A stretch of DNA of 64,000 nt from Modestobacter versicolor (GTDB lineage Bacteria; Actinomycetota; Actinomycetes; Mycobacteriales; Geodermatophilaceae): the NCBI RefSeq assembly GCF_014195485.1, contig NZ_JACIBU010000001.1, positions 3,038,001-3,102,000 of the forward strand, read 5' to 3'. A program made the position numbers and the translations under genes. A model generated the notes under the pieces. The model saw only the letters and a list, made by a program, of their open reading frames with translations, was not told the DNA's origin and ran no database searches. Within the stretch, counting starts at the first letter, position 1; each line of letters begins with the position of its first letter. Below are positions 12,058 through 27,594 of the stretch, in pieces.

Positions 12058-12873
12058 CTAGGCGGCCGGGGAGTGGTCGCGGTTGACCAGGATGGCCAGC
12101 TGCGTGCGGGTGCGCACCTCCAGCCGGCGCATCACCGCGGTGAGGTGGCTCTTCACCGTCGCCGGGCTCAGGAACAGCCGGCGGGCGATCTCCTCGTTGC
12201 TCAGGCCCTGCGCCACCAGCGCGGCCACCTCGCGCTGCCGCTCGGTGAGCCGGTCCAGGGCCCGGCGCTCGGGGGAGACCTGGGCGCCGTCGCCGGTCAG
12301 GTAGGTGACCAGCTGGGTGGTGACCGTGGAGTCCAGCGCCGCCTCGTGCCGGGCCAGCGCCCGGACCGCCTCGACCAGGCGCTGCGCGGCGGCGCGGCGG
12401 GGCAGGAAGCCCCGCACGCCGGCCTGCAGCACGTCGACGAGCGCCGCCCGGTTGCCGGCGCAGGACTCGGCCAGCACCAGCACGGCCGTCCCGCGCTGGC
12501 ACAGCTCCCGCAGCAGCGGCAGGGTGGCGCCGCCCACCAGCCCCTGCCGGACGACGACGACCTGCGTGCCGGGGCGCTCGGCCACCGCGAGCGCCTCCTC
12601 GAGGTCGGCGGTCTCGGCCACCACGGCGATGTCGGGCTGGGCCTCGAACACCGCGCGCAGCCCGAGCCGGAAGACCTCCTGGTCCTCGCAGAGCAGCACC
12701 TGCACCAGCGGTCGCGGCGGCCGGCTCGCGCAGGGCTGCAGGACGTTCGGTGACCGCCGTTGCTCCGGCACCCGGGCCACGTCGTGGAGGAGGGCGCGTG
12801 CCCTCGGCTCCTCCGACGGGCGCAGCTGCAGGCCGCGGTGGCCCGGATCCGTCCCTACGTCGTCGCTGCCCAT
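12058..12873 (-). CDS. NarL/LuxR-type regulator with Asp-less receiver domain (1)
   Basis: 271 residues: disordered leader (1-55), receiver-like domain (about 56-175), LuxR-type HTH (about 205-265, LTERQREVAALVAQGLSNEEIARR...VKSHL). The receiver keeps the acidic pair (E63, D64), but the strand that should end in the phosphorylated Asp reads QVVVVRQGLVGG, with Arg/Gln at 109-110. The conserved Lys is replaced in GFLPRR. So conventional phosphorylation is unlikely, as in the aspartate-less regulators of several Streptomyces antibiotic clusters, which respond to ligands instead. ATG 12873 follows GGGGAG. Likely regulator of the adjacent polyketide operon, by position. Confidence 0.88.
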   Translation of the reverse strand: MGSDDVGTDPGHRGLQLRPSEEPRARALLHDVARVPEQRRSPNVLQPCASRPPRPLVQVLLCEDQEVFRLGLRAVFEAQPDIAVVAETADLEEALAVAERPGTQVVVVRQGLVGGATLPLLRELCQRGTAVLVLAESCAGNRAALVDVLQAGVRGFLPRRAAAQRLVEAVRALARHEAALDSTVTTQLVTYLTGDGAQVSPERRALDRLTERQREVAALVAQGLSNEEIARRLFLSPATVKSHLTAVMRRLEVRTRTQLAILVNRDHSPAA

Positions 12874-13033
12874 GCGGACTCCCCTGCTCCGCCCCGTGAC
12901 GCAGCCCATCCACCGCCCCGGGGGCCGGCGGATCGCGGTCCGCTCGTCCCTGAGCTGACGGTGATTGCGCTGCACAGACGGTAGCGGACGATTCAGTGCG
13001 GATGACAGTCGTCTCCCACATTTCGCACAGCCT

Positions 13034-13069: not shown

Positions 13070-13846
13070 TCAGCCGGCCGGGCCCTCCCCCCGGGCCAGG
13101 CCGGTGGCCCGGTGGAACTGGATGGCCAGCTGCGTCCGGTCGCGCAGCCCCAGGCGCCGCAGCGCCACGGTGATGTGGCCCTTCACGGTGGCCCGGCTGA
13201 CGTCGAGCCGCTCGGCGATCTCGGCGTTGGTCAGGCCCTCGGCGACCAGCCGGGACACCGCCATCTGCCGCGCGGTGAGCGCGCCGCTGAAGGCCGACCG
13301 CGCGCCGTCGGCGTGCCGGGGCGTGTCGTCCAGCCGGTGCAGCAGCTCGCCGGTCGCGGCCTCGTCCAGCACCGTCTCCCCCTGCGCCACCGCACGCACC
13401 CCGTCGACCAGGCGCTGCGGGCTCACCGTGGTGTGCACGTACCCGCTGGCGCCGGCCTGCAGCGCGTCGACCAGGTCGCTGCCGGCACCGGGCTCGCCGA
13501 GCAGCACCACCCGCACGCCCATCCCGGTCAGGGACCGCACCAGGCCCTGCACGACCGGTCCCCAGACCCCCAGGCCGACCACCGTGACGTCGGGCCGGGT
13601 CCGGGTGGCGAGCTCGAGCGCCTCCGCCGCGTCCTCCGCCTCGCCGACGACGAGGAGGTCCGGCGCGCGGAGCAGGACCGCGCGCACGCCGTGCCGCAGC
13701 ACCTCGTGGTCGTCGCAGACGAGGACCCGGACAGCCGCCCGGGCGGCCGGGCCGCCGGCGGGCACGGCGGGGGCGGTGCCGGGCAGGCCGGCACGCACGC
13801 CGGGCGAGGCCTGGTCGGCCATGCCGAGGTACGCGTCGCCGGCCAT
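13070..13846 (-). CDS. NarL/LuxR-type regulator with Asp-less receiver domain (2)
   Basis: 258 residues with the same design as its neighbour: receiver-like domain (about 38-160) and C-terminal LuxR HTH (LTARQMAVSRLVAEGLTNAEIAERL...VKGHITVALRRLGL). The acidic pair D45-D46 is present, but the phospho-acceptor site reads DVTVVGLGVWG, with Gly at position 91, and the conserved Lys is absent in GYVHTT. It is therefore a second aspartate-less receiver. ATG 13846 follows GGAGAAGGGG. It is divergent from the polyketide operon across a 375 bp region with three related palindromes, so it is the prime candidate for pathway control. Confidence 0.88.
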   Translation of the reverse strand: MAGDAYLGMADQASPGVRAGLPGTAPAVPAGGPAARAAVRVLVCDDHEVLRHGVRAVLLRAPDLLVVGEAEDAAEALELATRTRPDVTVVGLGVWGPVVQGLVRSLTGMGVRVVLLGEPGAGSDLVDALQAGASGYVHTTVSPQRLVDGVRAVAQGETVLDEAATGELLHRLDDTPRHADGARSAFSGALTARQMAVSRLVAEGLTNAEIAERLDVSRATVKGHITVALRRLGLRDRTQLAIQFHRATGLARGEGPAG

Positions 13847-14221
13847 GGGCCCCTTCTCCGCTCCGGACAGGCCGCGTGGACCGAGCCCGATCAGTTCCGG
13901 TAGTCGGAAGCTAGGGGATCGCGCTGGTCGGGCGCCACACCTCCCCGCGCGTCGCACCCGATCCGGACCAGGGTTCATACCCGGGTAGGGGGTCCGGCCG
14001 CCCGGGGAACGGGGCGGGCCACCCCGGGTGGGGGAGCCCTGCGCCGGAGGGCGGACCGGACCACGCGGACCGGTGGGCGCCGACCGCTCCCTCCGGTGGG
14101 GGCGTGCCCCCGACCCCACCCCCGGGTGGCCGCCGGAACCGTCCGTCCGGCCGATGCCCGGCCCTGCACCGCCGCCCTAGCGTCGACGGCGTCCGACGGT
14201 CCCGCCAGCGCAGGAGCAGCC
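13847..14221. promoter_or_regulatory. 375 bp control region with three related palindromes
   Basis: No gene. It separates the second Asp-less regulator from the polyketide operon. Three palindromes share ACCC..GGGT arms: TACCCGGGTA (13978-13987), CCACCC-C-GGGTGG (14019-14031) and CCACCC-CC-GGGTGG (14116-14129). Iterated copies in a divergent promoter region suggest binding sites for the pathway regulator(s). The GC-richness of the area makes chance palindromes more likely, so this is a moderate call. Confidence 0.5.
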
Positions 14222-14548
14222 GTGCACGAGACGATGATCATCGCGAAGATGGCCCCGGGCGACGCCGACGAGGTCGCCGCCGTCTTCGGCCGCCACGACG
14301 CGACGTCGGTGCCCCACGAGATCGGGGTGCGGCAGCGGTCGCTGTACCAGTTCCACGGCCTCTACGTGCACCTGATCGGCTTCGACCGGCCGGCCCCCGA
14401 GGCGATGCGGATCGCGCAGTCGCTGCCGGCCTTCCGCGCCGTCAGCGAGGACCTCGCGCCCTACATCGAGGCCTACGACCCGAACTGGCGCTCACCGCAG
14501 GACGCGATGGCGCGCCGCTTCTACCACTGGACGTCCTCGCCCGAGTGA
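14222..14548 (+). CDS. TcmI-family type II polyketide cyclase
   Basis: 108-residue protein with the TcmI/WhiE-VII cyclase pattern: HETMIIAKMAPGDADEVAAVF, then RQRSLYQFHGLYVHLIGF, and a C-terminal AMARRFYHW. These small dimeric alpha+beta-barrel enzymes close late rings of aromatic polyketides. GTG 14222 has AGGAG at the right spacing. It is the first gene of the polyketide operon, 31 bp upstream of the carboxyltransferase gene. The family assignment is strong; which ring it closes is not visible. Confidence 0.93.
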   Translation: MHETMIIAKMAPGDADEVAAVFGRHDATSVPHEIGVRQRSLYQFHGLYVHLIGFDRPAPEAMRIAQSLPAFRAVSEDLAPYIEAYDPNWRSPQDAMARRFYHWTSSPE

Positions 14549-14579
14549 GGCTCCGACAGCACCCGGTTGAGAGGCAGCC

Positions 14580-16319
14580 ATGACGCGTTCCCCGATGACC
14601 ACCCCAGGTGTGCCGGCCCCGCCCGGGCAGGCGGGCTGGACCGCCTGCCCGGCCTGCGGCTGGCTGCTCTACCGCAAGCGGCTGGAACGGGACCTGCACG
14701 TCTGCCCGGAGTGCGACGAGCACCTCCGGCTCGACGCCCGCACCCGGATCGACCAGCTCACCGACCCGGGCAGCTTCACCGAGACGGTCGCCCCCTGCCG
14801 CGACTCCGACCCGCTCGCCTTCACCGACCTGCGGCCCTACGCCGACCGCGTCCGGGACGCCGCCCGGCGCTCGGGCGAGTCCGAGGCGGTCGTCGCGGGC
14901 ACGGCCTCGATCGGCGGCTTCCCCGTCGTCCTGGCGGTCATGGACTTCGGCTTCCTCGGCGGCAGCATGGGCGTGGAGGTGGGGCGCCGGGTCGGCGGAG
15001 CGGCCGCGCTGGCCCTCGCGCAGGGCCTGCCGCTGGTCACCGTCTGCGCGAGCGGGGGCGCCCGGATGCAGGAGGGCGTGTTCTCGCTGTTCCAGATGGC
15101 CCGGGTGAGCGAGGCCTTCGGCCGGCTGCGCGAGGCCGGGCTGCTCTCGGTCTGCGTGCTCACCGACCCGACCTACGGCGGGGTCTCCGCCTCGTTCGCC
15201 ACGCTCGGCTCGGTCCTGGTCGCCGAGCGGGGGGCGCACGTGGGCTTCGCCGGCCCGCGGGTGGTGCAGGAGACCATCCGCGCCGAGCTCCCCCGCGACT
15301 TCCAGACCGCGGAGTTCCTGCTGGCCCACGGCCTGGTCGACCGGGTGGAGACCCGGGCCGAGCTGCGGCCGCTGCTGGTCCGGCTGCTCGCCCTGCACGA
15401 CCGGACCCGCGTCCCCGACGTGCGCGCCCGGGCGGCGGAGGCCGGCACCGACGACGCGGACCCGACCGGGTGGCTCGGCGACGACGACCCCTGGGACGTC
15501 GTCCAGCGGGCCCGGGTGGTCGACCGGCCGACCACGCTGGACTACCTGCACACCGCCTTCGACGACTTCGTGGAGCTGCACGGCGACCGGGCCTGCGCCG
15601 ACGACCCGGCGGTGGTCGGCGGGATCGCGGCCATCGGCGGCCACCGGGTGGTGGTGGTCGGGCAGGAGAAGGGGCACTCGGTCCGCGAGCGGGTGGCCCA
15701 CCACTTCGGCATGCCGCACCCGGAGGGCTACCGCAAGGCCCTGCGCCTGCTCGGCCACGCGGAGGCGCACGGGATGCCGGTCGTCACCCTGGTCGACACC
15801 CCCGGGGCGCACCCCGGCCCGGAGGCCGAGGAGCACGGCCAGTCGCACGCGATCGCCGAGATCATCATGCGCAGCAGCCGGCTGCGGGTCCCGGTCGTGG
15901 CGGTGGTGACCGGCGAGGGCGGCAGCGGTGGAGCGCTCGCCCTGTGCACCTCGGACCGGCTGCTGGTGCTGGAGAACGCCTACCTCTCGGTGATCAGCCC
16001 CGAGGGGTGCGCGGCCATCCTGTGGCGGACCGCCGGCGCCGCGCCCACGGCGGCCCGGGCCATGCGCCTGGGCGCCGGCCACCTCTACCGGTCGGGCATC
16101 GCCACCTCCGTCGTCCCCGAACCGCCCGGCGGCGCCCACACCGACCCGGCGGCGGCGGCCCGGCACCTCCGGGCGGCGCTGCTCCGCGAGCTCGACGAGC
16201 TCGCCGGGTGCGACGTGGAGACGCTGCTGGCGGCCCGGTCACGCCGGTTGTCCGGTCTGGACGGCGAGGGCGCGCGGCCGGTCCGCGCGCTGCAGCCGGT
16301 GCTCCCGGGGAGGTCCTGA
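14580..16319 (+). CDS. accDA: Acetyl-CoA carboxylase carboxyltransferase, AccD-AccA fusion
   Basis: 579 residues. An AccD half begins with a C4 zinc ribbon (CPAC at 23-26, CPEC at 42-45) and runs to about 275 (CASGGARMQEG, VLTDPTYGG). An AccA half runs from about 315 to the end (DDFVELHGDR, GHEKG-like GQEKGHS, TLVDTPGAHPGPEAEE, GEGGSGGALAL). It transfers carboxyl from biotin to acetyl-CoA to give malonyl-CoA. A multi-subunit bacterial/plastid-type ACC is unusual for an actinobacterium, where fused AccA3 plus AccD is the rule; here it sits inside a polyketide operon, presumably as a dedicated extender supply. SD GAGAGG precedes ATG 14580; accB starts 1 bp after its stop. Confidence 0.93.
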   Translation: MTRSPMTTPGVPAPPGQAGWTACPACGWLLYRKRLERDLHVCPECDEHLRLDARTRIDQLTDPGSFTETVAPCRDSDPLAFTDLRPYADRVRDAARRSGESEAVVAGTASIGGFPVVLAVMDFGFLGGSMGVEVGRRVGGAAALALAQGLPLVTVCASGGARMQEGVFSLFQMARVSEAFGRLREAGLLSVCVLTDPTYGGVSASFATLGSVLVAERGAHVGFAGPRVVQETIRAELPRDFQTAEFLLAHGLVDRVETRAELRPLLVRLLALHDRTRVPDVRARAAEAGTDDADPTGWLGDDDPWDVVQRARVVDRPTTLDYLHTAFDDFVELHGDRACADDPAVVGGIAAIGGHRVVVVGQEKGHSVRERVAHHFGMPHPEGYRKALRLLGHAEAHGMPVVTLVDTPGAHPGPEAEEHGQSHAIAEIIMRSSRLRVPVVAVVTGEGGSGGALALCTSDRLLVLENAYLSVISPEGCAAILWRTAGAAPTAARAMRLGAGHLYRSGIATSVVPEPPGGAHTDPAAAARHLRAALLRELDELAGCDVETLLAARSRRLSGLDGEGARPVRALQPVLPGRS

Positions 16320-16320
16320 C

Positions 16321-16833
16321 GTGTCCCCCGGTGAGCTCGCCCCCCGCGCGGCCGTCAACGGCGTGCCCGCGCCGGCCGAGGAGCGCACCCGGACGCTCAG
16401 CGACGAGGTGGTGCAGCTGGCCCGCACCCTGCCCGGGGACCTGCGCCGGCTGACCGTCCGCAGCGGCGACGAGACGATCGAGGTCGAGTGGGCGCCGGAC
16501 GACCGCGGCGCGGAGGGGGCGGTGCGCGCGCCCCGGACGAGCACCGCGACCGCGGACGACCCACCCGGCGTCCCGCCCGACGTCGTCACCGTCTGCGCCC
16601 CGCTGGTCGGCACCTTCTACGCGGGACCCTCGCCCGACGCCGGCCCGTTCGTGCGCGTCGGTGACGCCGTCGAGCCCGGCCAGACCCTCGGGATCGTCGA
16701 GGCGATGAAGCTGATGAACCCGATCGTCGCCGAGGAGGCGGGCGTGGTCAGCGAGGTCCTGGTCGGCGACGCGGAGTCCGTCGAGTACGGGCAGGTCCTG
16801 CTGCACCTGCGCCCCGCCGGGGGGCCGCGGTGA
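16321..16833 (+). CDS. accB: Biotin carboxyl carrier protein (AccB)
   Basis: 170 residues from GTG 16321: helical N-terminal part, acidic/Pro linker (60-85), then the biotinyl domain ending with the biotin motif EAMKLMNP; Lys130 is the biotin attachment site. The APLVGTFYAGPSP thumb region is the standard AccB form. It carries CO2 between AccC and the AccDA fusion. The gene starts 1 bp after accDA and overlaps accC by GTGA, so the three subunits are translated together. In many actinobacteria BCCP is fused to BC; here it is free. Confidence 0.95.
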   Translation: MSPGELAPRAAVNGVPAPAEERTRTLSDEVVQLARTLPGDLRRLTVRSGDETIEVEWAPDDRGAEGAVRAPRTSTATADDPPGVPPDVVTVCAPLVGTFYAGPSPDAGPFVRVGDAVEPGQTLGIVEAMKLMNPIVAEEAGVVSEVLVGDAESVEYGQVLLHLRPAGGPR

Positions 16834-18323
16834 TCAGCCGGCTGCTCATCGCCAACCGCGGTGAGATCGCCGTCCGGATCGCCCGGGCCTGCCGGGAGCT
16901 CGGCATCGAGGTCGTCGCCGCCTGCTCCACCCCCGACCGGCACTCCGCGGTCGTGGAGATGGCCGACGAGGCGGTGCACATCGGCCCGCCCGCGCCACGG
17001 CACAGCTACCTGCACGTGCCCAACCTCATCGAGGCGGCGCTGCGCACCGGCGCGGACGCCGTCCACCCCGGTTACGGCTTCCTCTCCGAGGACCCGGACT
17101 TCGCCGAGATCTGCGAGATGGAGGGGCTGACCTTCGTCGGTCCGCCCCCGGAGGTCATGCAGCAGATGGGCAACAAGGCGACCGCGCGCCGGCTGATGGC
17201 CGACGCGGGCCTGCCGCTGCTGCCCGGGGTGGTCGAGCCGGTGCGGACGGCGGAGGAGGGCCGGGCGATCGCCGACGAGATCGGCTACCCGGTGATCATC
17301 AAGGCCGCCGCGGGCGGCGGTGGCCGCGGGATGACCGTGGTGCGCGCGCCCGCGGAGTTCGCCGACGCCTTCACCGCGACCCGGGCGGTCGCCCGCGCGG
17401 TCTTCCGCGACCCGGCCGTCTACGTGGAGCGGTACCTGACCCGGGCCCGGCACGTGGAGGTGCAGGTGCTCTGCGACGGCCACGGCGCCGGGATCCACCT
17501 GGGCGAGCGGGACTGCTCCCTGCAGCGGCGGCACCAGAAGCTGCTCGAGGAGGGCCCGGCCGGCCACCTCACCCCCCGGCAGCGCGCCGAGCTGGGCGCG
17601 CTGGCGGTGCGCGGGGCGCTCTCCGTCGGGTTCACCGGCGCGGGCACGGTCGAGTTCCTGGTCGACGACGCCGGCGCGTACTTCATGGAGATGAACGCCC
17701 GGATCCAGGTCGAGCACCCGGTCACCGAGGTGCTCACCGGGGTCGACCTGGTGCGCGAGCAGCTGCTGGTCGCCGGTGGCCGGCGGCTGCAGCTGCGACA
17801 GGAGGACGTCGTGACCCGCGGCGCCGCGATCGAGTGCCGGATCAACGCCGAGGACCCCACCCGCGGGTTCGCCCCCGCCCCCGGGCACCTCGACGTGCTG
17901 CGGCCCCCGGGCGGCCCGTGGACCCGCTTCGACACCGGCTACCGGCAGGGCGACGACGTCAGCCCGCACTACGACTCGCTGCTGGGCAAGCTCGTGGTCT
18001 GGGCGCCCGACCGGGACCAGGCGATCCGCCGGATGGACCGGGCGCTGGCCGAGCTGCGGGTCGAGGGCCCGGGCCTGCGCACCACCACCGCGCTGCAGCG
18101 GGCCCTGCTGCGGCACCCCGACGTGCGCGCCGACTGCCACGACATCGAGTTCCTCGACCGCTGCCTGCCCGACCTGCTGGTCGAGGCCACCGCTCTCAGC
18201 GCGACGCCCACGGCCACCCTGCCCGCCCCGCGCGGCCCCCTGCAGCTCGTGCCCGCCCCGTCCGACCAGGACTGGCCGGGACCCCTCGCCCACGCACCGC
18301 TCACGGAAGGAACACCGCCATGA
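16830..18323 (+). CDS. accC: Biotin carboxylase (AccC)
   Basis: 497 residues, the size of a stand-alone biotin carboxylase with a short Pro-rich tail. ISRLLIANRGEIAVRIARACRELGI opens the N-terminal domain. The ATP-grasp Gly-rich loop is KAAAGGGGRGM (about 156-166), active-site residues lie in EMNARIQVEHPVTE (about 287-300), and INAEDP follows. It carboxylates biotin on AccB using ATP and bicarbonate. GTG 16830 overlaps the accB stop and its own stop overlaps the ACP start (ATGA), tying carboxylation to chain assembly. Confidence 0.95.
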   Translation: MISRLLIANRGEIAVRIARACRELGIEVVAACSTPDRHSAVVEMADEAVHIGPPAPRHSYLHVPNLIEAALRTGADAVHPGYGFLSEDPDFAEICEMEGLTFVGPPPEVMQQMGNKATARRLMADAGLPLLPGVVEPVRTAEEGRAIADEIGYPVIIKAAAGGGGRGMTVVRAPAEFADAFTATRAVARAVFRDPAVYVERYLTRARHVEVQVLCDGHGAGIHLGERDCSLQRRHQKLLEEGPAGHLTPRQRAELGALAVRGALSVGFTGAGTVEFLVDDAGAYFMEMNARIQVEHPVTEVLTGVDLVREQLLVAGGRRLQLRQEDVVTRGAAIECRINAEDPTRGFAPAPGHLDVLRPPGGPWTRFDTGYRQGDDVSPHYDSLLGKLVVWAPDRDQAIRRMDRALAELRVEGPGLRTTTALQRALLRHPDVRADCHDIEFLDRCLPDLLVEATALSATPTATLPAPRGPLQLVPAPSDQDWPGPLAHAPLTEGTPP

Positions 18324-18574
18324 CCGCACCGTCGTTCACCCTCGAGGACCTGATGGACCTCCTCGCGGAGAAGGCCGGGCTGCCGCCGGAGCAGCGCACC
18401 ACCGACCCCGACGCCCACTTCGCCGACATCGGCCTGGACTCGCTGGCCTTCCTGTCCATGCAGACCGAGCTGCACGACCGCTTCGGCACCGAGATGCCCG
18501 ACGACAGCCCCGACGGCTACACGCTCGGCGACATCGTCGCGACCGTCTCGGCGGCGCAGTCCCAGATGGCCTGA
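18320..18574 (+). CDS. Acyl carrier protein, type II PKS
   Basis: 84 residues. The 4'-phosphopantetheine attachment site is Ser41 in the motif ADIGLDSLAF. Helix-rich ends (LEDLMDLLAEKAG, GDIVATVSAAQ) are normal for ACPs. It tethers the growing chain for KS-alpha/KS-beta and the cyclases. The ATG overlaps the accC stop; GGAAGGA lies upstream. No phosphopantetheinyl transferase is encoded nearby, so activation must come from elsewhere in the genome. Confidence 0.95.
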   Translation: MTAPSFTLEDLMDLLAEKAGLPPEQRTTDPDAHFADIGLDSLAFLSMQTELHDRFGTEMPDDSPDGYTLGDIVATVSAAQSQMA

Positions 18575-18623
18575 TCGCCGCACCGATCCGCCCCCACCCA
18601 CGCACGACCGCCGGAGGACCCAG

Positions 18624-19121
18624 ATGAGCACCCTCGAGGACCAGAGCCGGACCGTCGGCCACACCGACAACTCGATCGTCATCGACGCCGACATCGACCA
18701 CGTGTGGCGGATGACGAACGACCTGCCGTCCTGGCCCGACCTGTTCACCGAGTACGCCGAGGTGGAGGTGCTCGCGCAGTCCGGCTCCACCTTCCGGTTC
18801 CGGCTGAAGATGCACCCCGACGAGAGCGGGCGGGTGTGGAGCTGGGTCTCCGAGCGCACGCTCGACGAGTCCCGGCACGAGGTGGTCGCCCGCCGGGTCG
18901 AGCCCGGGCCGTTCGAGTTCATGGACATCCGGTGGAGCTACGCGCCGGAGGGCGCGGGCACCCGGATGCGGTGGGTGCAGGACTTCCGGATGCGCCCGGA
19001 CGCACCGATCGACACCGCGGCGATGACCGAGCGGATCGACGCCAACAGCAAGGTCCAGATGGCGGTGATCCGGGACAAGGTCGAGGCGGCCGCCCGGCAG
19101 CGCCCGGAGCCGGCGCGGTGA
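18624..19121 (+). CDS. Aromatase/cyclase, SRPBCC (START-like) family
   Basis: 165 residues with the polyketide aromatase/cyclase pattern of WhiE-VI and the TcmN N-terminal domain: HTDNSIVIDADIDHVWRMTNDLPSWPDLFTEY at the start, then VWSWVSERTLDES and MRWVQDFRMRPDAP. These helix-grip proteins direct first-ring closure and aromatisation of unreduced chains. Single-domain form, as expected for a pathway without a ketoreductase. GAGGACC lies before ATG 18624; the stop overlaps the next gene by GTGA. Confidence 0.93.
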   Translation: MSTLEDQSRTVGHTDNSIVIDADIDHVWRMTNDLPSWPDLFTEYAEVEVLAQSGSTFRFRLKMHPDESGRVWSWVSERTLDESRHEVVARRVEPGPFEFMDIRWSYAPEGAGTRMRWVQDFRMRPDAPIDTAAMTERIDANSKVQMAVIRDKVEAAARQRPEPAR

Positions 19122-20089
19122 CCGGCCCGCTCCGGGAGGCCGCCGTCGTCCTCCCGGGCGAGGACGCCGTCGTGCCCGGCGCGCTCGACCCGTGGCTGAC
19201 CGACCAGGCCGCCCGGGACGTGGTCGAGGAGGCCTCGGAGGTGCTGGGCCGCAACGTCGTCCCGTGGTGGCGCGACCGGCTCAACCTCTGCGACCCGGTG
19301 GCTGCGGCCCTGGCGGCCGTGGTGACCGGGGTGGCCGGCGCCCGCAGCCTGGTCGCCCAGGGCCTGCAGCCGGTGGCGTACGCCGGGCACGGCGTCGGGG
19401 AGTACGCGGCGCTGGTGGCCGCCGGCGCCCTCCGGCTGGACCAGGTCGTGGCCCTGGTCGACTGGCGGGCCGAGATGCTCACCCACGCGCCGCGGCCGTG
19501 CTGCGCGGGCATGGCCGCCGTGGTCGGCCCGGGCGCCTCCGAGGTCGCCCGCCGGGTCGTCGCGGACGTCGGGGCCACCGGCAGCCTGACCGTCGCCTCG
19601 GTGGACGCCCCCGCGCAGGTGGTGCTCTCCGGCGGGTGCGACGAGCTGGCCCGGGCCCGCACGGCCGTCACCGCCGCCGGGCTGGACCTCGTGCGGCTGC
19701 CCGGGCGGGTCGCCTGCCACGGGCCGCTGGTGGAGTCCGTCGCCGCCCGGCTGGCCGCCCCGCTCGCCGACCTGGACTGGTCCGTCCCAGCGGTGCCGGT
19801 GCTGCCCAACGTCGACGGCCGGCCCACCCGCGACCCCGACCAGCTGGCCCGCGGCCTGCGCCGGCACCTGACCTCGCCGGTGCAGTGGGAGGCCACCTCC
19901 CGGGCGCTGGTGGAGGCCGGCGCCCGCTGCGTCGTCGAGGTCGGGGCGGTGCCCACCCTCGGCCCGCTGATCCGCCAGGTCCACCCGGACCTCCCCGTCC
20001 AGCTGGCCGGGGGTCCGGGGCTGCCCGCTCCGGCCACCCGCCCGGAACCCGTGCTCACGGGTCCGGCGCCCACCCGAGGAGAGAGATGA
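19118..20089 (+). CDS. Acyltransferase-fold protein lacking the catalytic Ser (pseudo-AT)
   Basis: 323 residues aligning in order with malonyl-CoA:ACP acyltransferases: N-terminal strand, nucleophile elbow, Arg117 (DWRAEM), His201 (VACHGPLVES), and C-terminal VEVGAVPTLGPLI. The elbow reads GHGVGEY (90-96) instead of GHSxGEY, so the Ser nucleophile is Gly92. The usual N-terminal GQG(S/A)Q is also gone (PGEDAVV at 13-19). Two independent losses with an intact reading frame and coupled translation (GTGA before, ATGA after) suggest a retained but non-canonical role, perhaps structural or as a binding partner. Ordinary FabD elsewhere in the genome could load the ACP. Confidence 0.85.
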   Translation: MTGPLREAAVVLPGEDAVVPGALDPWLTDQAARDVVEEASEVLGRNVVPWWRDRLNLCDPVAAALAAVVTGVAGARSLVAQGLQPVAYAGHGVGEYAALVAAGALRLDQVVALVDWRAEMLTHAPRPCCAGMAAVVGPGASEVARRVVADVGATGSLTVASVDAPAQVVLSGGCDELARARTAVTAAGLDLVRLPGRVACHGPLVESVAARLAAPLADLDWSVPAVPVLPNVDGRPTRDPDQLARGLRRHLTSPVQWEATSRALVEAGARCVVEVGAVPTLGPLIRQVHPDLPVQLAGGPGLPAPATRPEPVLTGPAPTRGER

Positions 20090-20508
20090 CGACGATCCAG
20101 CACCCCGTGGCCACCGTGCGCTGCGGGCCGACCGTGTCCCGGGCGGACACCCTGCCCAACCGCCGCCGCGGCGGTGACATCCGCGTGCTGCTCTCCCCCG
20201 CCAGCGTCGGGTCGACCGCCGGCTTCCTCGGCACCCTCACCCTGGAGCCGGGCGAGGTCGTCACCGAGCACTGGCACCCGTACTCGGAGGAGTTCCTCTA
20301 CTGCGTCGCGGGCGAGGTGGTCGCCACGCTGGACGGCGAGCAGCGCCGGCTGCCGGGCGGGTCGGCGGTGCACATCCCGATCGGGGTGCGGCACCGGATC
20401 GTCAACGACGGCGCCGGCCCCGCCGAGCTGGTGTTCTTCTGCGGCCCGCTGGCCCCGCGGCCCGAGCTCGGCCACGTCGACACCGAGCCCGCGCCGGGCA
20501 CCCGATGA
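20086..20508 (+). CDS. Cupin-domain protein of whiE-II type
   Basis: 140-residue single cupin. Metal-ligand motif 1 is [17 protein letters not shown] (HxH...E, about 64-80) and motif 2 is [12 protein letters not shown] (about 103-114). Cupins of this kind accompany spore-pigment type II PKS operons, such as whiE ORFII, directly before KS-alpha, as here. Their chemistry is not settled; a cyclase or oxygenation helper is usually proposed. GAGGAGAG precedes ATG 20086, which lies in the stop of the acyltransferase-like gene; its own stop overlaps KS-alpha. Confidence 0.9.
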
Positions 20509-21803
20509 GCCGCGCCACCGGGCGCCGGGTGGTGCTCACCGGCATCGGCGTGGTCGCGCCCGGCTCGATGGGCCGGGAGGGCTTCTGGGACATGATCACG
20601 GCCGGCCGGACGGCGACCCGGCGGATCACCTTCTTCGACCCCAGCCGCTTCCGCTCGCAGGTCGCGGCCGAGGTGGACTTCGACGGCCGCAAGCTGGGCC
20701 TCACCGCGCACGAGGTGGCCCGCAACGACCGCTTCGTGCAGATGGCGATGGTCGCCGCCGACGAGGCGGTCGCCGACAGCGGGCTGCGGTTCGGCACCGG
20801 CGGCGCCGACGACGCGCCGGACCCGGACCGGGTGGGCGTCGTGCTGGGCACCGCCGTCGGGGCGACCATGCGGCTGGAGAACGAGTACGTGGCGGTCAGC
20901 GACGCCGGCACCCACTGGCTGGTCGACCCCCGCTACGCCTCGCGGTTCCTGCACCACGCCCTGGTGCCCAGCTGCGGCGCCACCGAGCTGGCGGTGCGCT
21001 TCGGCGCCCACGGGCCGGCCACCGTGGTCTCCACGGGCTGCACCTCGGGCATCGACGCGGTGGGCTACGGCAGCCAGCTGATCGAGGACGGCGACGCCGA
21101 CGTGGTGATCTCCGGTGCCAGCGACGCCCCGATCTCGCCGATCTCGATGGCCTGCTTCGACACCATCCGGGCGACGACCGGCAACAACGCCGACCCCGAG
21201 CACGCCTCCCGCCCGTTCGACGCCCGCCGCGACGGTTTCGTGATGGGCGAGGGCGCGGCGGTGCTCGTGCTGGAGGAGCTCGAGCACGCCCGGCGGCGGG
21301 GCGCGGAGGTGTACTGCGAGGTCAGCGGGTACGCCAACCGCTGCAACGCCCACCACATGACCGGGCTGCGCCCCGACGGCGTCGAGATGGCCGAGGCCAT
21401 CCGGCTGGCGCTGGACCAGGGCCGGGTCGACCCCGACGAGGTCGGCTACGTCAACGCGCACGGGTCGGGCACCAAGCAGAACGACCGGCACGAGACGGCG
21501 GCGGTCAAGCTCAGCCTGGGCCCCACGGCGCAGCGGGTCTCGATGAGCTCGATCAAGTCGATGGTCGGCCACTCCCTCGGCGCGATCGGCTCGATCGAGA
21601 TCGCCGCCACCGCGCTGGCCGTGCAGCGCGGCGTCGTCCCGCCGACGGCGAACTACGGGGTGCCCGACCCCGAGTGCGACCTGGACTACGTGCCCAACAC
21701 CGCGCGCGAGCAGAAGGTGGACGTCGCGCTGTCGGTGGGCAGCGGCTTCGGCGGCTTCCAGTCGGCGATCGTGCTGGCCCACCCCTCGCGGAGGACGGCA
21801 TGA
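20505..21803 (+). CDS. Type II PKS ketosynthase alpha (KS-alpha)
   Basis: 432 residues with a complete KS triad: Cys179 in STGCTSGID, His in [11 protein letters not shown] (about 316-326) and His in [16 protein letters not shown] (about 345-360). It performs decarboxylative Claisen condensation of malonyl units as a heterodimer with the next gene's product. The TGCTSG form marks an aromatic (minimal PKS) KS rather than FabF, and the partner CLF confirms it. Translation is coupled at both ends by ATGA overlaps. Confidence 0.96.
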
Positions 21804-23038
21804 CCCGGCTGGTGGTGACCGGGATCGGCGTGGTCGCCCCGACCGGCATCGGCGTCGAGGCGCACTGGTCCTCGCTGGTGCGCGGCGAGGCGGCGATCCG
21901 GCCGATCGAGGGCTTCGACCCCGCGCAGTACGGCGTCAGCCTGGCCGGGCAGGTGCGCGACTTCGAGCCGAAGGCGTTCGTGGCGCCCCAGCTGATGGTG
22001 CAGACCGACCGGTGGACCTGGACGTCGCTGGCGGCGGCCACCCTGGCCGCGCAGGACGCCGGCTACTCCGAGCCCGAGGACGCCTACGCGACCTCGGTGT
22101 TCCTGGCCGCCGGCTCCGGTGGCAACGAGTTCAGCCAGCACGAGATCCAGGGGCTGTGGGCCAAGGGGCCCAAGTCGGTCGGCGCGTACCAGTCGATCGC
22201 CTGGTTCTACGCGGCCAGCACCGGCCAGATCTCCATCCGCGACGGCTACAAGGGCCCGTCGGGGGTGGTGGTCAGCGAGGGCGCGGGCGGGCTGGACAGC
22301 ATCGGCTGGGCGCGGCGCGTCGTCCGGCGCGGGACGCCGGCGGTGCTGGTCGGGGGCACCGAGGCCGGCGTGACGCCCTACGCCCTGCTGTGCCAGGCGA
22401 CCAGCGGCCGGCTGTCGACCGCGACCCGTCCGGAGGACGCGTACAAGCCCTTCGACCGGCGGGCCGACGGCCACGTCGTCGGCGAGGGTGGCGCGATCCT
22501 GCTGCTGGAGGAGGCCGGCGCCGCCCGCGCCCGCGGGGCCCGGCAGGTGTGGGGCGAGGTCGTCGGCCACGGCGCCACCCACGACGCCCACCACCACGAG
22601 GACCCCGCGCCCGACGCCACCCAGTACGCCCGGGCGATCCGGCTCTCCCTGGCCGACGCCGGGGTGACCCCCGACGAGGTCGACCTGGTGCTGGCCGACG
22701 GGGCCGGCGTGCCCGAGCTGGACGCGCTGGAGCTGGAGGCGCTGCAGCGGGTCTTCGGCGGCCGGGCCACCCCCGTGCCGGTGACCGCGCCGTCGTCCTG
22801 GACCGGGCGGCTGATGGCCGGCGGCTCGGCGCTCAACGTCGCGACGGCGCTGCTGGCGATGCGCGACGGGATCGTGCCCGGCACCGCGTTCCTCGACGAC
22901 CCGGTCGACGCCCCCGGCGTCGACCTCGTGCAGCAGCACCGGGTGCAGGAGGTCGGCACGGTCGTCGTCCTGGCCCGCGGCTTCGGCGGGTTCAACAGCA
23001 GCCTGGTGCTGCGCCGTCCCCAGGAGGAGACCTCATGA
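21800..23038 (+). CDS. Type II PKS ketosynthase beta / chain-length factor
   Basis: 412 residues, a KS homologue without the active-site Cys. The equivalent stretch is [14 protein letters not shown] (156-169). Chain-length factors normally have Gln here (SEQAGGLD); this one has Gly161. The second and third KS His positions are also altered ([22 protein letters not shown]). It sets chain length as the KS-alpha partner. The Gln-to-Gly change could affect malonyl-ACP decarboxylation priming, a proposed and debated role of that residue. ATGA overlaps link it to KS-alpha and to the monooxygenase. Confidence 0.95.
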
Positions 23039-25458
23039 CCGCTGTCCAGGACCCACCCACCACCACGCAGGGCGGCGCCGTGCGCACGCTGCTGCGGATG
23101 CGGGTGCGCGAGGGCTGCGAGGCGCAGTTCGAGGAGGCCTGGCAGGCGGCGGCCGCGCAGATCGCCGCGGAGCCGGGCAACGTCCGGCAGGAGCTGCTGC
23201 GTGACGCCGACGACCCGCGGACCTTCCTCATCGCCGGCGACTGGGCCGACCGGGCCGCGGCGGACGCCTTCGGCCGGTCCCGGGCCCGCGAGACGCTGAC
23301 CGCCGCCCTCCGCGACCTGCGCGAGGACGCCGACCGCAGCACCTACGAGGTGCGCTGCGGCATCGCCGGCGGGGAGCAGGGCTCGCACGTCCGGGTGGAC
23401 ATCAGCACCCGGGTCGGGCCCGGCGAGGAGGAGGCGTTCGAGCGGGCCTACGCCGTCGTGACCGACCGGCTGCGCGGGACGCCGGGGCTGATCCGGGAGG
23501 AGCTGCTCCGCGAACCGGGCTCGGACATCTACCACATCTTCGCCGAGTGGGAGTCCGACGAGGACTTCCGCAACTGGGTGGACGACCCCTCGCACGCCGA
23601 CCAGAGCGGGCCGCTGATCCGCTGGCTGTCGGTGTTCTTCGAGCGCAAGCTCTACGAGATCCGGTTCCGCCCGCAGGAGGCCGGCGTCCGCGGCGTCCGG
23701 GCCGCGACGACCACCCCGGCCCCGGCCGGCCCGGTGGCCGAGTCGGTGCCCGCGCCCCGCCCCGCACCGGCGGCCGCCCCGGTCGCCCCGCCCGCGGCCG
23801 CGCCGGTCCGCACCGCCTGCGAGGTGCTCGTGGTGGGCGCCGGGCCCACCGGGCTGACCGCGGCGATCGAGCTGGCCCGCCGGGGCATCGCCGTCCGGGT
23901 CGTGGACAAGCGGAGCGCGCCGGCCGCCCAGGCGGACAAGGCGATCGGCGTGCACTGCCGGACGATGGAGATCTGGGAGGACCAGGGCGTCGTCACCGAG
24001 GCGATGGACGCCGGCAGCTGGCTGTACGGCCAGACGGTGTTCGTCAACGGCCGGCAGACCCACCAGGTCGACTGGTCCGGGCTCGAGGAGCTGCCCTACG
24101 CCCACCTCGGGCTGCCGCAGTACGAGACCGAGCGCATCCTCGGCGACCGGCTCGCCGCGCTGGGCGTGCGGGTCGACCGCGGGGTCGAGCTCACCGGCTT
24201 CAGCCAGGACGACGACGGCGTGACCGCGGAGCTGGTGGACGCCGACGGTGCCCGGTCCAGCACCCGGGCGCAGTACCTGGTCGGCGCCGACGGGTCGGGC
24301 AGCGCGGTGCGCGCCCAGCTCGGGCTCACCTTCGACGGCGGCCTGTCGATGTTCCCGCAGCTGTTCATGCTCGGCGACGTCGACGTCGACTGGGAGATGC
24401 CACCGGGGCACCTGGTCCGCTGGGTGCGGATCGAGGAGGACGGCGACTTCACCGGCATGCTGGTCTGCGTCCCGCTCAAGGGCCGCAACCGGTACCGGGT
24501 GGCGACGCTGGCGCCGCAGCGGCTGCAGCAGACGATCGGCAGCGGGGTCGTGCCGCCCGGGTTCTGGAAGGAGTACGACCCGCCGGGGCTGGCCGACATC
24601 CAGGCCGCCATCGACGACCTCGGCCCGGCCGGGACCACGGCGACCAACCTGCGCTGGTCGTCGGTGTTCCGGGTCAAGCACGGCATCGTCGACCGGTACC
24701 GCGACGGCCGGGTGTTCGTGGCCGGCGACGCCGCGCACCTGCACCCCCCGGCGGGCGGGCAGGGCATGAACACCGGCATCCAGGACGCCTGGAACCTGGC
24801 GTGGAAGGTCGCCCTCGCCGTCCGCGGGCAGGCCTCCCCCGGCCTGCTGGACAGCTACCAGGCCGAGCGGCGTCCCGCGGGCAAGGCGATCGTCGACCGC
24901 GCCGTGGCCATCGCGTTCACCGACGAGATGGACATGGACGACGAGCGGGCGCAGTTCCTGCTCGAGATGCAGATGACGATGAACTACGCCGGGAGCCCGC
25001 TGGTCGGGGAGGTCACCGACTCGCAGGGGTTCGCCGGGGGGCCGGAGCCCGGCCACCGGGCGCCGGACGTGCTGGGGCTGCGCCGGTTCGGCGTCGCCCA
25101 CGACCTGCGGCTGTTCGACCTCACCCGGGGCACCCACTCCACGCTGCTGCTGCACGCCGGGCCCGGCACCTCGCCCGACGAGCTGCGGGCGCTGGAGGAG
25201 CTGGCCGTGGCGGTCCGGGCGTCGACCGGCGGCCAGGTGCGCCCGTACCTGCTGGCCGCCCCGGGGACGTCGGTGCCGCCGCTGGTCGACCTGCCGGTGC
25301 TCAGCGACGCCCGCGGCGCGTTCGCCACCGCCTACGGCACCACCGGCAGCGGGACGGCCGCGTACCTGGTGCGGCCCGACGGGCACGTCGGCTTCCGCAC
25401 CCGCCCGGTGACCGAGCAGGCGCTGCGCGCCCACCTGGCGCAGGTGTTCACCGGCTGA
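23035..25458 (+). CDS. Fusion: two ABM domains plus FAD-dependent polyketide monooxygenase
   Basis: 807 residues in three parts. Two antibiotic-biosynthesis-monooxygenase (ABM) folds lie at about 16-100 and 117-210 (each with an ExxPG-type turn and WxxxxDF helix), then an Ala/Pro linker (about 225-258), then a class A flavin hydroxylase: GAGPTG at 268-273, VGADGSGS for the second FAD site, and the GDAAHLHPPAGGQGMN motif near 560-575, with the thioredoxin-like C-terminal domain of PgaE/RdmE-type aromatic hydroxylases. ABM domains oxidise without cofactor, so one polypeptide may do both quinone formation and hydroxylation. Last gene of the coupled operon; ATGA overlap with KS-beta. Confidence 0.93.
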   Translation: MTAVQDPPTTTQGGAVRTLLRMRVREGCEAQFEEAWQAAAAQIAAEPGNVRQELLRDADDPRTFLIAGDWADRAAADAFGRSRARETLTAALRDLREDADRSTYEVRCGIAGGEQGSHVRVDISTRVGPGEEEAFERAYAVVTDRLRGTPGLIREELLREPGSDIYHIFAEWESDEDFRNWVDDPSHADQSGPLIRWLSVFFERKLYEIRFRPQEAGVRGVRAATTTPAPAGPVAESVPAPRPAPAAAPVAPPAAAPVRTACEVLVVGAGPTGLTAAIELARRGIAVRVVDKRSAPAAQADKAIGVHCRTMEIWEDQGVVTEAMDAGSWLYGQTVFVNGRQTHQVDWSGLEELPYAHLGLPQYETERILGDRLAALGVRVDRGVELTGFSQDDDGVTAELVDADGARSSTRAQYLVGADGSGSAVRAQLGLTFDGGLSMFPQLFMLGDVDVDWEMPPGHLVRWVRIEEDGDFTGMLVCVPLKGRNRYRVATLAPQRLQQTIGSGVVPPGFWKEYDPPGLADIQAAIDDLGPAGTTATNLRWSSVFRVKHGIVDRYRDGRVFVAGDAAHLHPPAGGQGMNTGIQDAWNLAWKVALAVRGQASPGLLDSYQAERRPAGKAIVDRAVAIAFTDEMDMDDERAQFLLEMQMTMNYAGSPLVGEVTDSQGFAGGPEPGHRAPDVLGLRRFGVAHDLRLFDLTRGTHSTLLLHAGPGTSPDELRALEELAVAVRASTGGQVRPYLLAAPGTSVPPLVDLPVLSDARGAFATAYGTTGSGTAAYLVRPDGHVGFRTRPVTEQALRAHLAQVFTG

Positions 25459-25521: not shown

Positions 25522-27594
25522 ATGAGTGCTCGGCGCGTGCGCATCGGCATCGACACCGGGGGCACGTTCACCGACGTCGTCGCCGTCGACGAGGAGACCG
25601 GCGAGGTCGCGACCACCAAGACCCCGTCCACCCCCAGCGACCCGGCCGACGGCTTCCTCGCCGGCGTCCAGAAGGTCCTCGGGCAGCTGGGCCTGGACGG
25701 CAGCGCCGTCACCGCGGTCAGCCACGGGACGACGGTCGCCACCAACCAGCTGCTCGAGGGCAAGCTCGACCGGATCGGGTTCATCACCACCGAGGGCTAC
25801 GAGTCGGTGCTGGAGATCGCCCGCCAGTCGGTGCCCGACGGCTACGGGAACAGCTACTTCTGGGTCAAGCCGCCGCGGATCGTCCCGGCCGACCTGGTCC
25901 GCACCGTGCGCGGGCGGCTCGACGTCACCGGCGCCGAGGTGCGCCCCTTCGACCGGGACGACGCCGTCGCGGCCGCCCGGTTCTTCCGGGACGCCGGGAT
26001 CACCACCATCGGCGTCTGCTTCCTGCACGCCTACGCCGACGACGCGCACGAGCGGGCCATGCTCGACGTGCTCCACGTGGAACACCCCGGCGCGGTGGTC
26101 TCGATCAGCTCCCAGGTGCTGCGCGAGTACCGGGAGTACGAGCGCTCGGTCACCACCCTGGTCGACGCCGCGGTGAAGCCCAAGGTCGGCGCCTACGTGT
26201 CCGGCATCCGCCGCCGGCTCGACGAGATCGCGCCCGGCGTCCCCTTCTACGTGATGAAGAGCAACGGCGGCGTGCTCAGCGCGGCCGAGGTCGTCAACCA
26301 GCCGATCACCACGATGCTGTCCGGCCCGGCCGCCGGAGCGCTGGGCGCGGCGCTGATCGCCGGGACGGCGGGCTTCGACCGGGTGCTCACCTGCGACGGC
26401 GGCGGGACGTCGACCGACGTCACCGTGGTCATCGACGGCGAGCCCACGCTCACCACCGAGGGGTCGGTCGGCGACTACCCGTCCAAGATCCCGATGATCG
26501 ACGTGGTCACCGTCGGAGCCGGCGGCGGCTCGATCGCCTGGCTCTCCCCCGAGGGCACGCTCAAGGTGGGCCCGCGCTCGGCCGGCGCCGACCCGGGCCC
26601 GATCTGCTACGACCAGGGCGGCGACCAGCCCACCGTCACCGACGCCCACGTCGTGCTCGGCCGGATCCCCCCGCACCTGCTGGGTGGGGAGATCCCGCTG
26701 TCGGTCGACGCGGCCCGGGCCGGGCTGGAGCAGCTCGGCGGACAGCTGGGCATGGGCGTCGAGCAGCTGGCCACCGGGATCCTGGAGATCTCCGCGTGGA
26801 ACCAGGCCAACGCGCTGCGCCAGGTCACCGTCGCCCGCGGGCTCGACGTCCGGGACTTCACGCTGACCACGTTCGGCGGCTCCGGCTCGCTGCTGGCCTG
26901 CCGGTTGATGGACGTCCTCGGGCTGCCGCGCACGCTGGTGCCGCCGAACCCGGGCAACGTCAGCGCGTTCGGGCTGCTCACCGTCGACGTCCGCAACGAC
27001 TACGTGCAGACGATGGTGTCCCGGCACGCCGAGCTCTCCCCGGAGTCCGTCGCCGGCGCCTTCGCCGCGCTCGAGGCCCAGGCTGCCGCCGCGCTGGACG
27101 AGGAGGGCTTCGGCCGCGACCAGCAGCGGGTGCAGCGCACCGCGGACCTGCGCTACGTCGGCCAGGCGTTCGAGGTCCGGGTGCCGGTCGGCGCGGGCGA
27201 GCTGGACCCCGCCGCCCTCGACGCCGTGGCCACCGCCTTCCACGCCGCGCACCACCAGCTCTACGGGTACGACTTCGCCGACGACCCGCGGCAGGCCGTG
27301 GAGTGGGTCAACCTGCGGGTGAGCGGGATCGGGCCCATCCGCCGTCCCGACGTGGTGGAGCTGGCGCCGCGCGAGGGCGGGGTGGACCGCTCCGTCACCG
27401 GCACCCGCCGGGTCTTCTTCGACGAGTGGACCGACGCCCCGCTGCACTGGCGGCCGGACCTCGCCCCCGGCGACGTCGTCGTCGGCCCGGCGGTCGTGGA
27501 GGAGTTCGGCTCGACCGTGCCCGTGCACCCCGGTTTCGTCGCCACCGTCGACCGGTACGGCAACCTGCTGCTGACCCGAGAGGACGCCCGATGA
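25522..27594 (+). CDS. Hydantoinase/oxoprolinase-type subunit A (HyuA-like)
   Basis: 690 residues with ASKHA-type ATPase motifs: RIGIDTGGTFTDVVAVD at 6-22, HGTTVATNQLLEG near 74-86, CDGGGTSTDVTVV near 291-303, and a GAGGGSIAWL turn. This family includes N-methylhydantoinase A, 5-oxoprolinase, caprolactamase and the ATP-dependent acetone/acetophenone carboxylase subunits. The exact substrate cannot be told. It starts 63 bp after the polyketide operon and overlaps HyuB by ATGA. It may have its own promoter in that gap or be read through. Confidence 0.9.
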   Translation: MSARRVRIGIDTGGTFTDVVAVDEETGEVATTKTPSTPSDPADGFLAGVQKVLGQLGLDGSAVTAVSHGTTVATNQLLEGKLDRIGFITTEGYESVLEIARQSVPDGYGNSYFWVKPPRIVPADLVRTVRGRLDVTGAEVRPFDRDDAVAAARFFRDAGITTIGVCFLHAYADDAHERAMLDVLHVEHPGAVVSISSQVLREYREYERSVTTLVDAAVKPKVGAYVSGIRRRLDEIAPGVPFYVMKSNGGVLSAAEVVNQPITTMLSGPAAGALGAALIAGTAGFDRVLTCDGGGTSTDVTVVIDGEPTLTTEGSVGDYPSKIPMIDVVTVGAGGGSIAWLSPEGTLKVGPRSAGADPGPICYDQGGDQPTVTDAHVVLGRIPPHLLGGEIPLSVDAARAGLEQLGGQLGMGVEQLATGILEISAWNQANALRQVTVARGLDVRDFTLTTFGGSGSLLACRLMDVLGLPRTLVPPNPGNVSAFGLLTVDVRNDYVQTMVSRHAELSPESVAGAFAALEAQAAAALDEEGFGRDQQRVQRTADLRYVGQAFEVRVPVGAGELDPAALDAVATAFHAAHHQLYGYDFADDPRQAVEWVNLRVSGIGPIRRPDVVELAPREGGVDRSVTGTRRVFFDEWTDAPLHWRPDLAPGDVVVGPAVVEEFGSTVPVHPGFVATVDRYGNLLLTREDAR

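Follow-up and report, generated by a model that had tools for sequence, protein, structure and literature searches.

A conserved type II polyketide operon of Geodermatophilaceae with a probable dedicated acetyl-CoA carboxylase and a retained serine-less acyltransferase-like protein

Acetyl-CoA carboxylase (ACC) genes have been described in a few type II polyketide synthase (PKS) clusters. The persiamycin cluster of Streptomonospora sp. PA3 is reported with an AccDA-like protein (PerH), AccC (PerI), AccB (PerJ) and WhiE-type cyclases (PMC7296137), while the map legend of the formicamycin cluster of Streptomyces formicae, a further type II PKS system, lists ACC (PMC5414599). The whiE spore-pigment cluster of Streptomyces coelicolor is another point of reference (PMC4255298). 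Here we describe an operon from Modestobacter versicolor that lies in a 64,000-nt stretch (NZ_JACIBU010000001.1, 3,038,001-3,102,000, forward strand), hereafter the window. Judging from its gene content, it is a Geodermatophilaceae operon that probably encodes a non-reducing type II PKS together with an ACC dedicated to it. The pairing of ACC and PKS is a recurrent minority arrangement and this cluster is a well conserved variant of it, the variant itself being new; the surprise is not the ACC but the retention of a malonyl acyltransferase (MAT)-like protein that lacks its catalytic serine. Among the literature matches listed, none dealt with the ACC or MAT-like genes of Geodermatophilaceae.

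Eleven open frames, all on the + strand, fill positions 14222-25458 of the window, and seven of the ten gene junctions are 4-base overlaps, the other three being gaps of 31, 1 and 49 bases. An earlier sequence-only reading had placed eleven consecutive, mostly overlapping genes at exactly these coordinates. Gene identities were assigned with Pfam and NCBIfam profiles, one or other of which backs each of the eleven. The operon begins with a TcmI/WhiE-VII-type polyketide cyclase (14222..14548; PF04673, 141.6 bits), which is followed by AccDA, the fused carboxyltransferase beta and alpha subunits of ACC (14580..16319; TIGR00515 and NF041504 over cut-off, PF03255), AccB, the biotin carboxyl carrier protein (16321..16833; PF00364, with TIGR00531 at 109.5 bits against a cut-off of 115.2), and AccC, the biotin carboxylase (16830..18323; NF006367 at 598.7 bits, cut-off 597). 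It should be noted that the equivalog models TIGR00513, NF004344, TIGR00514 and TIGR00531 stay under cut-off for the ACC subunits. Next come an acyl carrier protein (ACP; 18320..18574, with the start corrected to 18320; PF00550), a TcmN/WhiE-VI-type aromatase/cyclase (18624..19121; PF03364/PF10604), the MAT-like protein of FabD/MdcH fold (19118..20089; PF00698 over cut-off), in which the catalytic serine is replaced by glycine and the oxyanion glutamine by glutamate, and a TcmJ/WhiE-II-type cupin (20086..20508; PF07883). The last three genes encode the FabF-like ketosynthase KS-alpha (20505..21803), the KS-beta or chain-length factor (CLF; 21800..23038), identified by Pfam/NCBIfam and by a motif without the active-site cysteine (SEGAGG), and a monooxygenase fusion of two ABM stretches (PF03992) with an FAD-binding hydroxylase (PF01494; 23035..25458). 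Two adjacent monooxygenase genes have been described for pentangular clusters (PMC4383371). The earlier gene list was right in that all whiE-type functions and AccDA, AccB and AccC are present, but it left out the MAT-like gene; its statement that ketoreductase and methyltransferase genes are missing holds for the eleven genes, among which there is also no glycosylation or transporter gene.

The distribution of the cluster was followed in a survey of 112 Geodermatophilaceae genomes, of which 96 reach 90% completeness or more. An AccDA ortholog (at least 75% identity, the next matches listed being at or below 42%) occurs in 35 of the 112, and KS-alpha (E 1e-80) in 36, namely the same 35 and G066; the latter lacks an AccDA ortholog of this kind, and its KS-alpha is 64% identical. 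In every AccDA-bearing genome (35/35) the two genes share a contig and are no more than about 6 kb apart. The G066 locus (L169) holds a different type II PKS (KS-alpha 63-64% identical to the window's), with no match to the ACC or MAT-like genes within the 20 kb examined. With genus names inferred and some genomes incomplete, KS-alpha is found in 20/26 genomes of g4 (with Geodermatophilus) and 12/23 of g1 (with Modestobacter), in 1/23 of g2 (with Blastococcus), and in 0/16 and 0/9 of g3 and g9; G048 carries the cluster. We compared 35 other loci, 19 of them named and 16 further genome regions, making 36 clusters with the window; 18 of the named loci belong to survey genomes, and L094, a Blastococcus record, lies outside the survey. 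The order cyclase-AccDA-AccB-AccC-ACP-cyclase-MAT-cupin-KS-CLF-monooxygenase is found in 34/35, and in L232 the MAT-like gene alone is missing, so that the order is otherwise kept in 35/35 loci and the arrangement is not due to chance. In about a dozen of the loci the sequence stretch ends inside the monooxygenase frame, and L101 has an additional monooxygenase-like match upstream. The ACC trio is inherited with the PKS as one block.

Across the 36 clusters, the key motifs of AccDA, AccB, AccC, ACP, cupin and KS-alpha are either intact or show conservative changes only. AccDA retains GARMQEG and GEGGSGGALAL, and AccC GGGGRGM, in 36/36, while the biotin-lysine motif of AccB reads EAMKLMNP in 35/36 and EAMKLLNP in the other; the biotin carboxylase, biotinyl-lysine carrier and fused carboxyltransferase are thus predicted to form a heteromeric ACC. 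This agrees, in both motifs and profiles, with the earlier claim of a full AccDA-B-C set within a type II PKS operon. On the PKS side, all clusters have TGCTSGID at the KS-alpha active site, E[GSA]AGG at the position of the missing cysteine in CLF and GLDSLAF in ACP, that is, a KS-alpha with the active cysteine, a CLF without it and a separate ACP with the DSL motif, as in type II aromatic PKSs. A CLF glycine at the usual glutamine position was considered as a novelty and dropped, since Gln, Glu, Ala, His or Gly is found there in other type II CLFs.

The acc genes might instead serve general lipid metabolism and sit in a PKS operon by coincidence, given that the subunits are complete and of ordinary bacterial type. 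We regard this as highly improbable, as the AccDA ortholog occurs only with the PKS (35/35 genomes) and carboxylase genes also exist elsewhere in the host genome, namely two more biotin carboxylase-plus-carrier genes, one with a carboxyltransferase gene beside it, a pyruvate-carboxylase-sized frame and an AccDA-like gene at 39-40% identity. The operon trio is therefore extra. It had been asked earlier whether the acc genes might be conserved elsewhere without the PKS and be the organism's only ACC; this did not prove to be so, the second point being ruled out by these further genes. Co-transcription with the PKS genes, also raised then, would be in keeping with the gene overlaps. In the dedicated-ACC reading that we prefer, AccC would carboxylate the biotin on AccB and AccDA would pass the carboxyl group to acetyl-CoA, yielding malonyl-CoA alongside the PKS, a role proposed because of the protein families and their intact motifs. 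The operon's ACP would then receive malonyl from the genome's intact housekeeping FabD or by self-malonylation, and KS-alpha/CLF would build a chain that stays unreduced. Folding of this chain would fall to the cyclases of the TcmN, TcmJ and TcmI types, and the ABM-ABM-FAD monooxygenase would oxidise it to a quinone-type aromatic.

The sequence-only reading had considered the ACC set exceptional for an actinobacterium. This does not stand, as precedents exist in perHIJ of persiamycin, in the formicamycin map, and in Pseudonocardia, Embleya, Nonomuraea and G282 loci; uniqueness of a full ACC set beside a type II PKS is likewise excluded by all but the formicamycin map. A phylum sample of 396 genomes yielded 22 places with KS-alpha relatives (E 1e-120), spread over 11 genomes other than that of the window. 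Of those 11, a single one (G282) also gave an AccDA relative (E 1e-85), which lies some 4 kb away from one of the two KS-alpha genes there. Both phylum searches, like the class search described below, score 3 to 5 candidates per genome, so that misses are possible. One of the AccDA-less places (L242) has an AccC-like match (46%) adjoining KS-alpha, and partial ACC sets may be commoner than counted. Plasmid-collection records with a KS-alpha relative number 91, and those with an AccDA relative 6 (E 1e-80 in each case); the AccDA-B-C trio shares a stretch with a type II PKS in Pseudonocardia pBCI1-2, Embleya and Nonomuraea. As a separate observation, AccDA-AccB-AccC directly follows type I PKS genes on the Pseudonocardia alni plasmid pPaSha1 (L238), where it looks like a portable malonyl-CoA cassette. 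An AccDA tree (24 loci given, of which 18 were used with the window after removal of matches below 350 aa in L108, L109, L117, L121, L123 and L126, where AccD and AccA are apparently separate genes) resolved no single PKS-ACC clade, several deep supports being 0.06-0.86. In the AccC tree (matches in 17/24 loci, plus the window) the window family groups with G251, G678 and G613 (0.942), Nonomuraea joins at 0.852 and other PKS-linked AccCs fall elsewhere.

The MAT-like gene is present in 35 of the 36 clusters. Its nucleophile elbow in the window reads AGHGVGEY instead of GHSxG, and position 92 is Gly in 34/35 proteins and Ser only in L230, which has an intact GHSLGEY. The oxyanion position is Glu in 33/35 and Gln in L230 and L101, the catalytic His is kept in 33/35, with Gly in L226 and L229, and the substrate Arg is invariant (35/35); we take these residues to have their FabD roles, the Arg being the malonyl carboxylate binder. 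Compared with the FabD/MCAT (malonyl-CoA:ACP transacylase) family, then, the fold, the Arg and usually the His are shared, whereas the Ser and the oxyanion Gln are mostly lost. The AlphaFold2 model (pLDDT 89.1) resembles the FabD structures PDB 3h0p and 1mla (TM-scores of 0.85-0.86) as well as the type II PKS MCAT of 6smd, pointing to a predicted FabD fold without the GHSxG serine, and the NCBIfam mdcH and fabD models score the protein well below cut-off. Going by these residues, it is predicted to be unable to run the normal serine ping-pong reaction. The host has a single further PF00698 protein, FabD-like with PGQG, GHSVGEL and AFH motifs, and malonyl loading could thus proceed without the operon's MAT-like protein. 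The open frame that holds this host FabD-like MAT (L263, G000:C1:1594784-1595671) has a C-terminal stretch resembling a biotinyl/lipoyl domain by eye, with no obvious EAMK motif.

What the serine-less protein does can be read in several ways. It may be a kept non-catalytic binding helper, a tentative and on balance unlikely view. In its fuller, equally speculative form, the protein would be a pseudo-acyltransferase put to a new use: as a non-catalytic subunit, it would dock ACP or hold malonyl and couple ACC to KS/CLF; by analogy it could then be the acyltransferase counterpart of CLF, the cysteine-less ketosynthase partner, a notion we hold just as loosely. Alternatively, the protein is a slow vestige: the ACC cassette brought in an active MAT, which became redundant with FabD, gave up its Ser and is now disappearing. 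We find this origin possible, if short of probable. It fits with the missing gene in L232, with the loss of His in L226 and L229, and with the sister relationship of L101 and L230 (support 0.997 in the MAT tree and 1.000 in a nine-gene tree): L230 has Ser and Gln and L101 keeps only the Gln, so that the simple reading is that Ser was lost at least twice, in separate lineages, while a regained Ser in L230 may be the alternative. A search of 394 class genomes (E 1e-20) gave at least 63 with a MAT match, the window's own included, and the nucleophile Ser is present in 29/29 non-family loci listed among those matches. Of eight such genomes examined over 16-20 kb (L211-L218), only G678 and G613 have AccDA-B-C beside MAT; there an intact MAT directly follows AccDA-AccB-AccC (L211, L212), which suggests a possible source of an ACC-MAT cassette. 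Against decay, the frame is kept in 35/36 clusters, the Arg is invariant and the modelled fold is confident. Its mean dN/dS of 0.244 over 14 close pairs, none involving L101 or L230, is also similar to that of the cyclases (0.229 and 0.242), with AccB at 0.332, ACP at 0.571 and cupin, KS-alpha, CLF, AccC and AccDA at 0.106-0.183. The remaining probability goes to an unorthodox activity or to no decision at all.

Several points weigh against the preferred reading of a PKS with a dedicated ACC and a pseudo-MAT. The dN/dS values are simple Nei-Gojobori estimates on very GC-rich genes. Of the ten proteins compared, the MAT-like protein has the fewest invariant columns (17%), as a vestige might, although AccB has the lower mean identity. 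With an intact MAT in L230 and no gene in L232, the pseudo-MAT is not found throughout and can be dispensed with. Lastly, G066 and 21/22 KS-alpha places outside the family, in the phylum sample, are without an AccDA relative at the thresholds used, and a dedicated ACC is thus not required in general.

Two LuxR-type response regulators (PF00196, PF00072) lie upstream in divergent orientation and are conserved together with the operon: RR1 (12058..12975, - strand) and RR2 (13070..14119, - strand; the true start is perhaps inside the frame), both with receivers lacking the phospho-acceptor Asp. RR2 is found at 50% identity or more in 33/35 loci (the L099 match is 48% and L107 is cut off), and RR1 in all 18 loci that extend far enough upstream (L089-L106). 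At the phospho-acceptor position, judged by motif, RR1 has Arg in 17/18 and Gly in 1/18, and RR2 Gly in 32/33 and Ser in 1/33. They are thus atypical regulators, perhaps responsive to a ligand or product, and probably control the operon. Downstream are hydantoinase/oxoprolinase A and B genes (25522-29447). Hydantoinase genes also follow the cluster in five g1 regions (L103, L104, L106, L220 and L234); the remaining loci end at most about 0.7 kb beyond the monooxygenase.

The product may be of two kinds. One is a pigment of spores or cells, with the cluster as a whiE ortholog and a possible tie to the dark colours of Geodermatophilaceae; we give this a substantial but less than even chance. All whiE-type functions are present, KS-alpha is frequent in g4 and g1 and rare or missing in g2, g3 and g9, and a black-pigmented Geodermatophilus has been reported with T2PKS clusters, which may or may not be of the window's type (PMC12453565). 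However, the same 2024 species description gives antiSMASH matches to formicamycin-type T2PKS in two Geodermatophilus strains (PMC12453565). In addition, the Blastococcus record L094 also has the cluster, and the window CLF reads EGAGG where 8/10 cupin-linked loci among L241-L262 read DEAGG, a comparison made by motif. The whiE cluster is not known to contain an ACC or a MAT. The earlier description of the product as spore-pigment-like thus keeps its basis in the whiE-type functions, but in view of the CLF motif it is one option only. The other kind would be a pentangular or tetracenomycin-type aromatic that is excreted, in line with the persiamycin and formicamycin clusters; we take it equally seriously without calling it probable. 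It is favoured by the ACC trio with WhiE-type cyclases shared with persiamycin (PMC7296137), by Nonomuraea gerenzanensis (L240), where the window's order is split into cyclase-AccDA-AccB-AccC and, some 8 kb away, ACP-cyclase-cupin-KS-CLF, and by the one pentangular prediction in the PKMiner table for Geodermatophilus obscurus, which may or may not concern a window-type cluster (PMC3462128). The missing ketoreductase, methyltransferase, glycosylation and transporter genes speak against it.

In these clusters an aromatic PKS and the supply of extender units are passed on together, as a single block, which makes them a clean and widespread system. They also offer a natural experiment on malonyl loading, with a serine-less MAT in 34 clusters, an intact one in another and none in the last. 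How type II PKS ACPs obtain malonyl, from a shared FabD or by self-loading, has long been debated, and these clusters make the question testable. The cluster is furthermore a candidate source of the dark pigment in Geodermatophilus and Modestobacter, the chemistry of which is, to our knowledge, unsettled.

Among known systems, whiE comprises PKS, cyclase, cupin and oxygenase functions and shares all of them with the window, but is not known to have the ACC and MAT-like genes. ZhuC, the acyltransferase homologue of the R1128 type II PKS, offers a parallel in that an acyltransferase relative again belongs to a type II PKS cluster; it is reportedly active, however, as an acyl-ACP thioesterase, and retains the Ser. 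Closer are the loci of Nonomuraea gerenzanensis and Embleya (L239), which have the cyclase-AccDA-AccB-AccC stretch with cupin, KS-alpha, CLF and aromatase (KS-alpha 66-67% and AccDA 51-52% identical to the window's), but, unlike the window, no MAT-like match. The formicamycin cluster is similar as a type II PKS cluster with ACC in its map legend, and differs in having a halogenase (PMC5414599). The persiamycin cluster has ketoreductase, sugar and methyl-transfer genes, another gene order and no MAT in its table, yet it combines the ACC trio with WhiE-paralog KS/CLF and WhiE II, VI and VII-type cyclases (PMC7296137). The window cluster is of this kind, with AccDA-B-C linked to KS-alpha/CLF and WhiE/Tcm cyclases.

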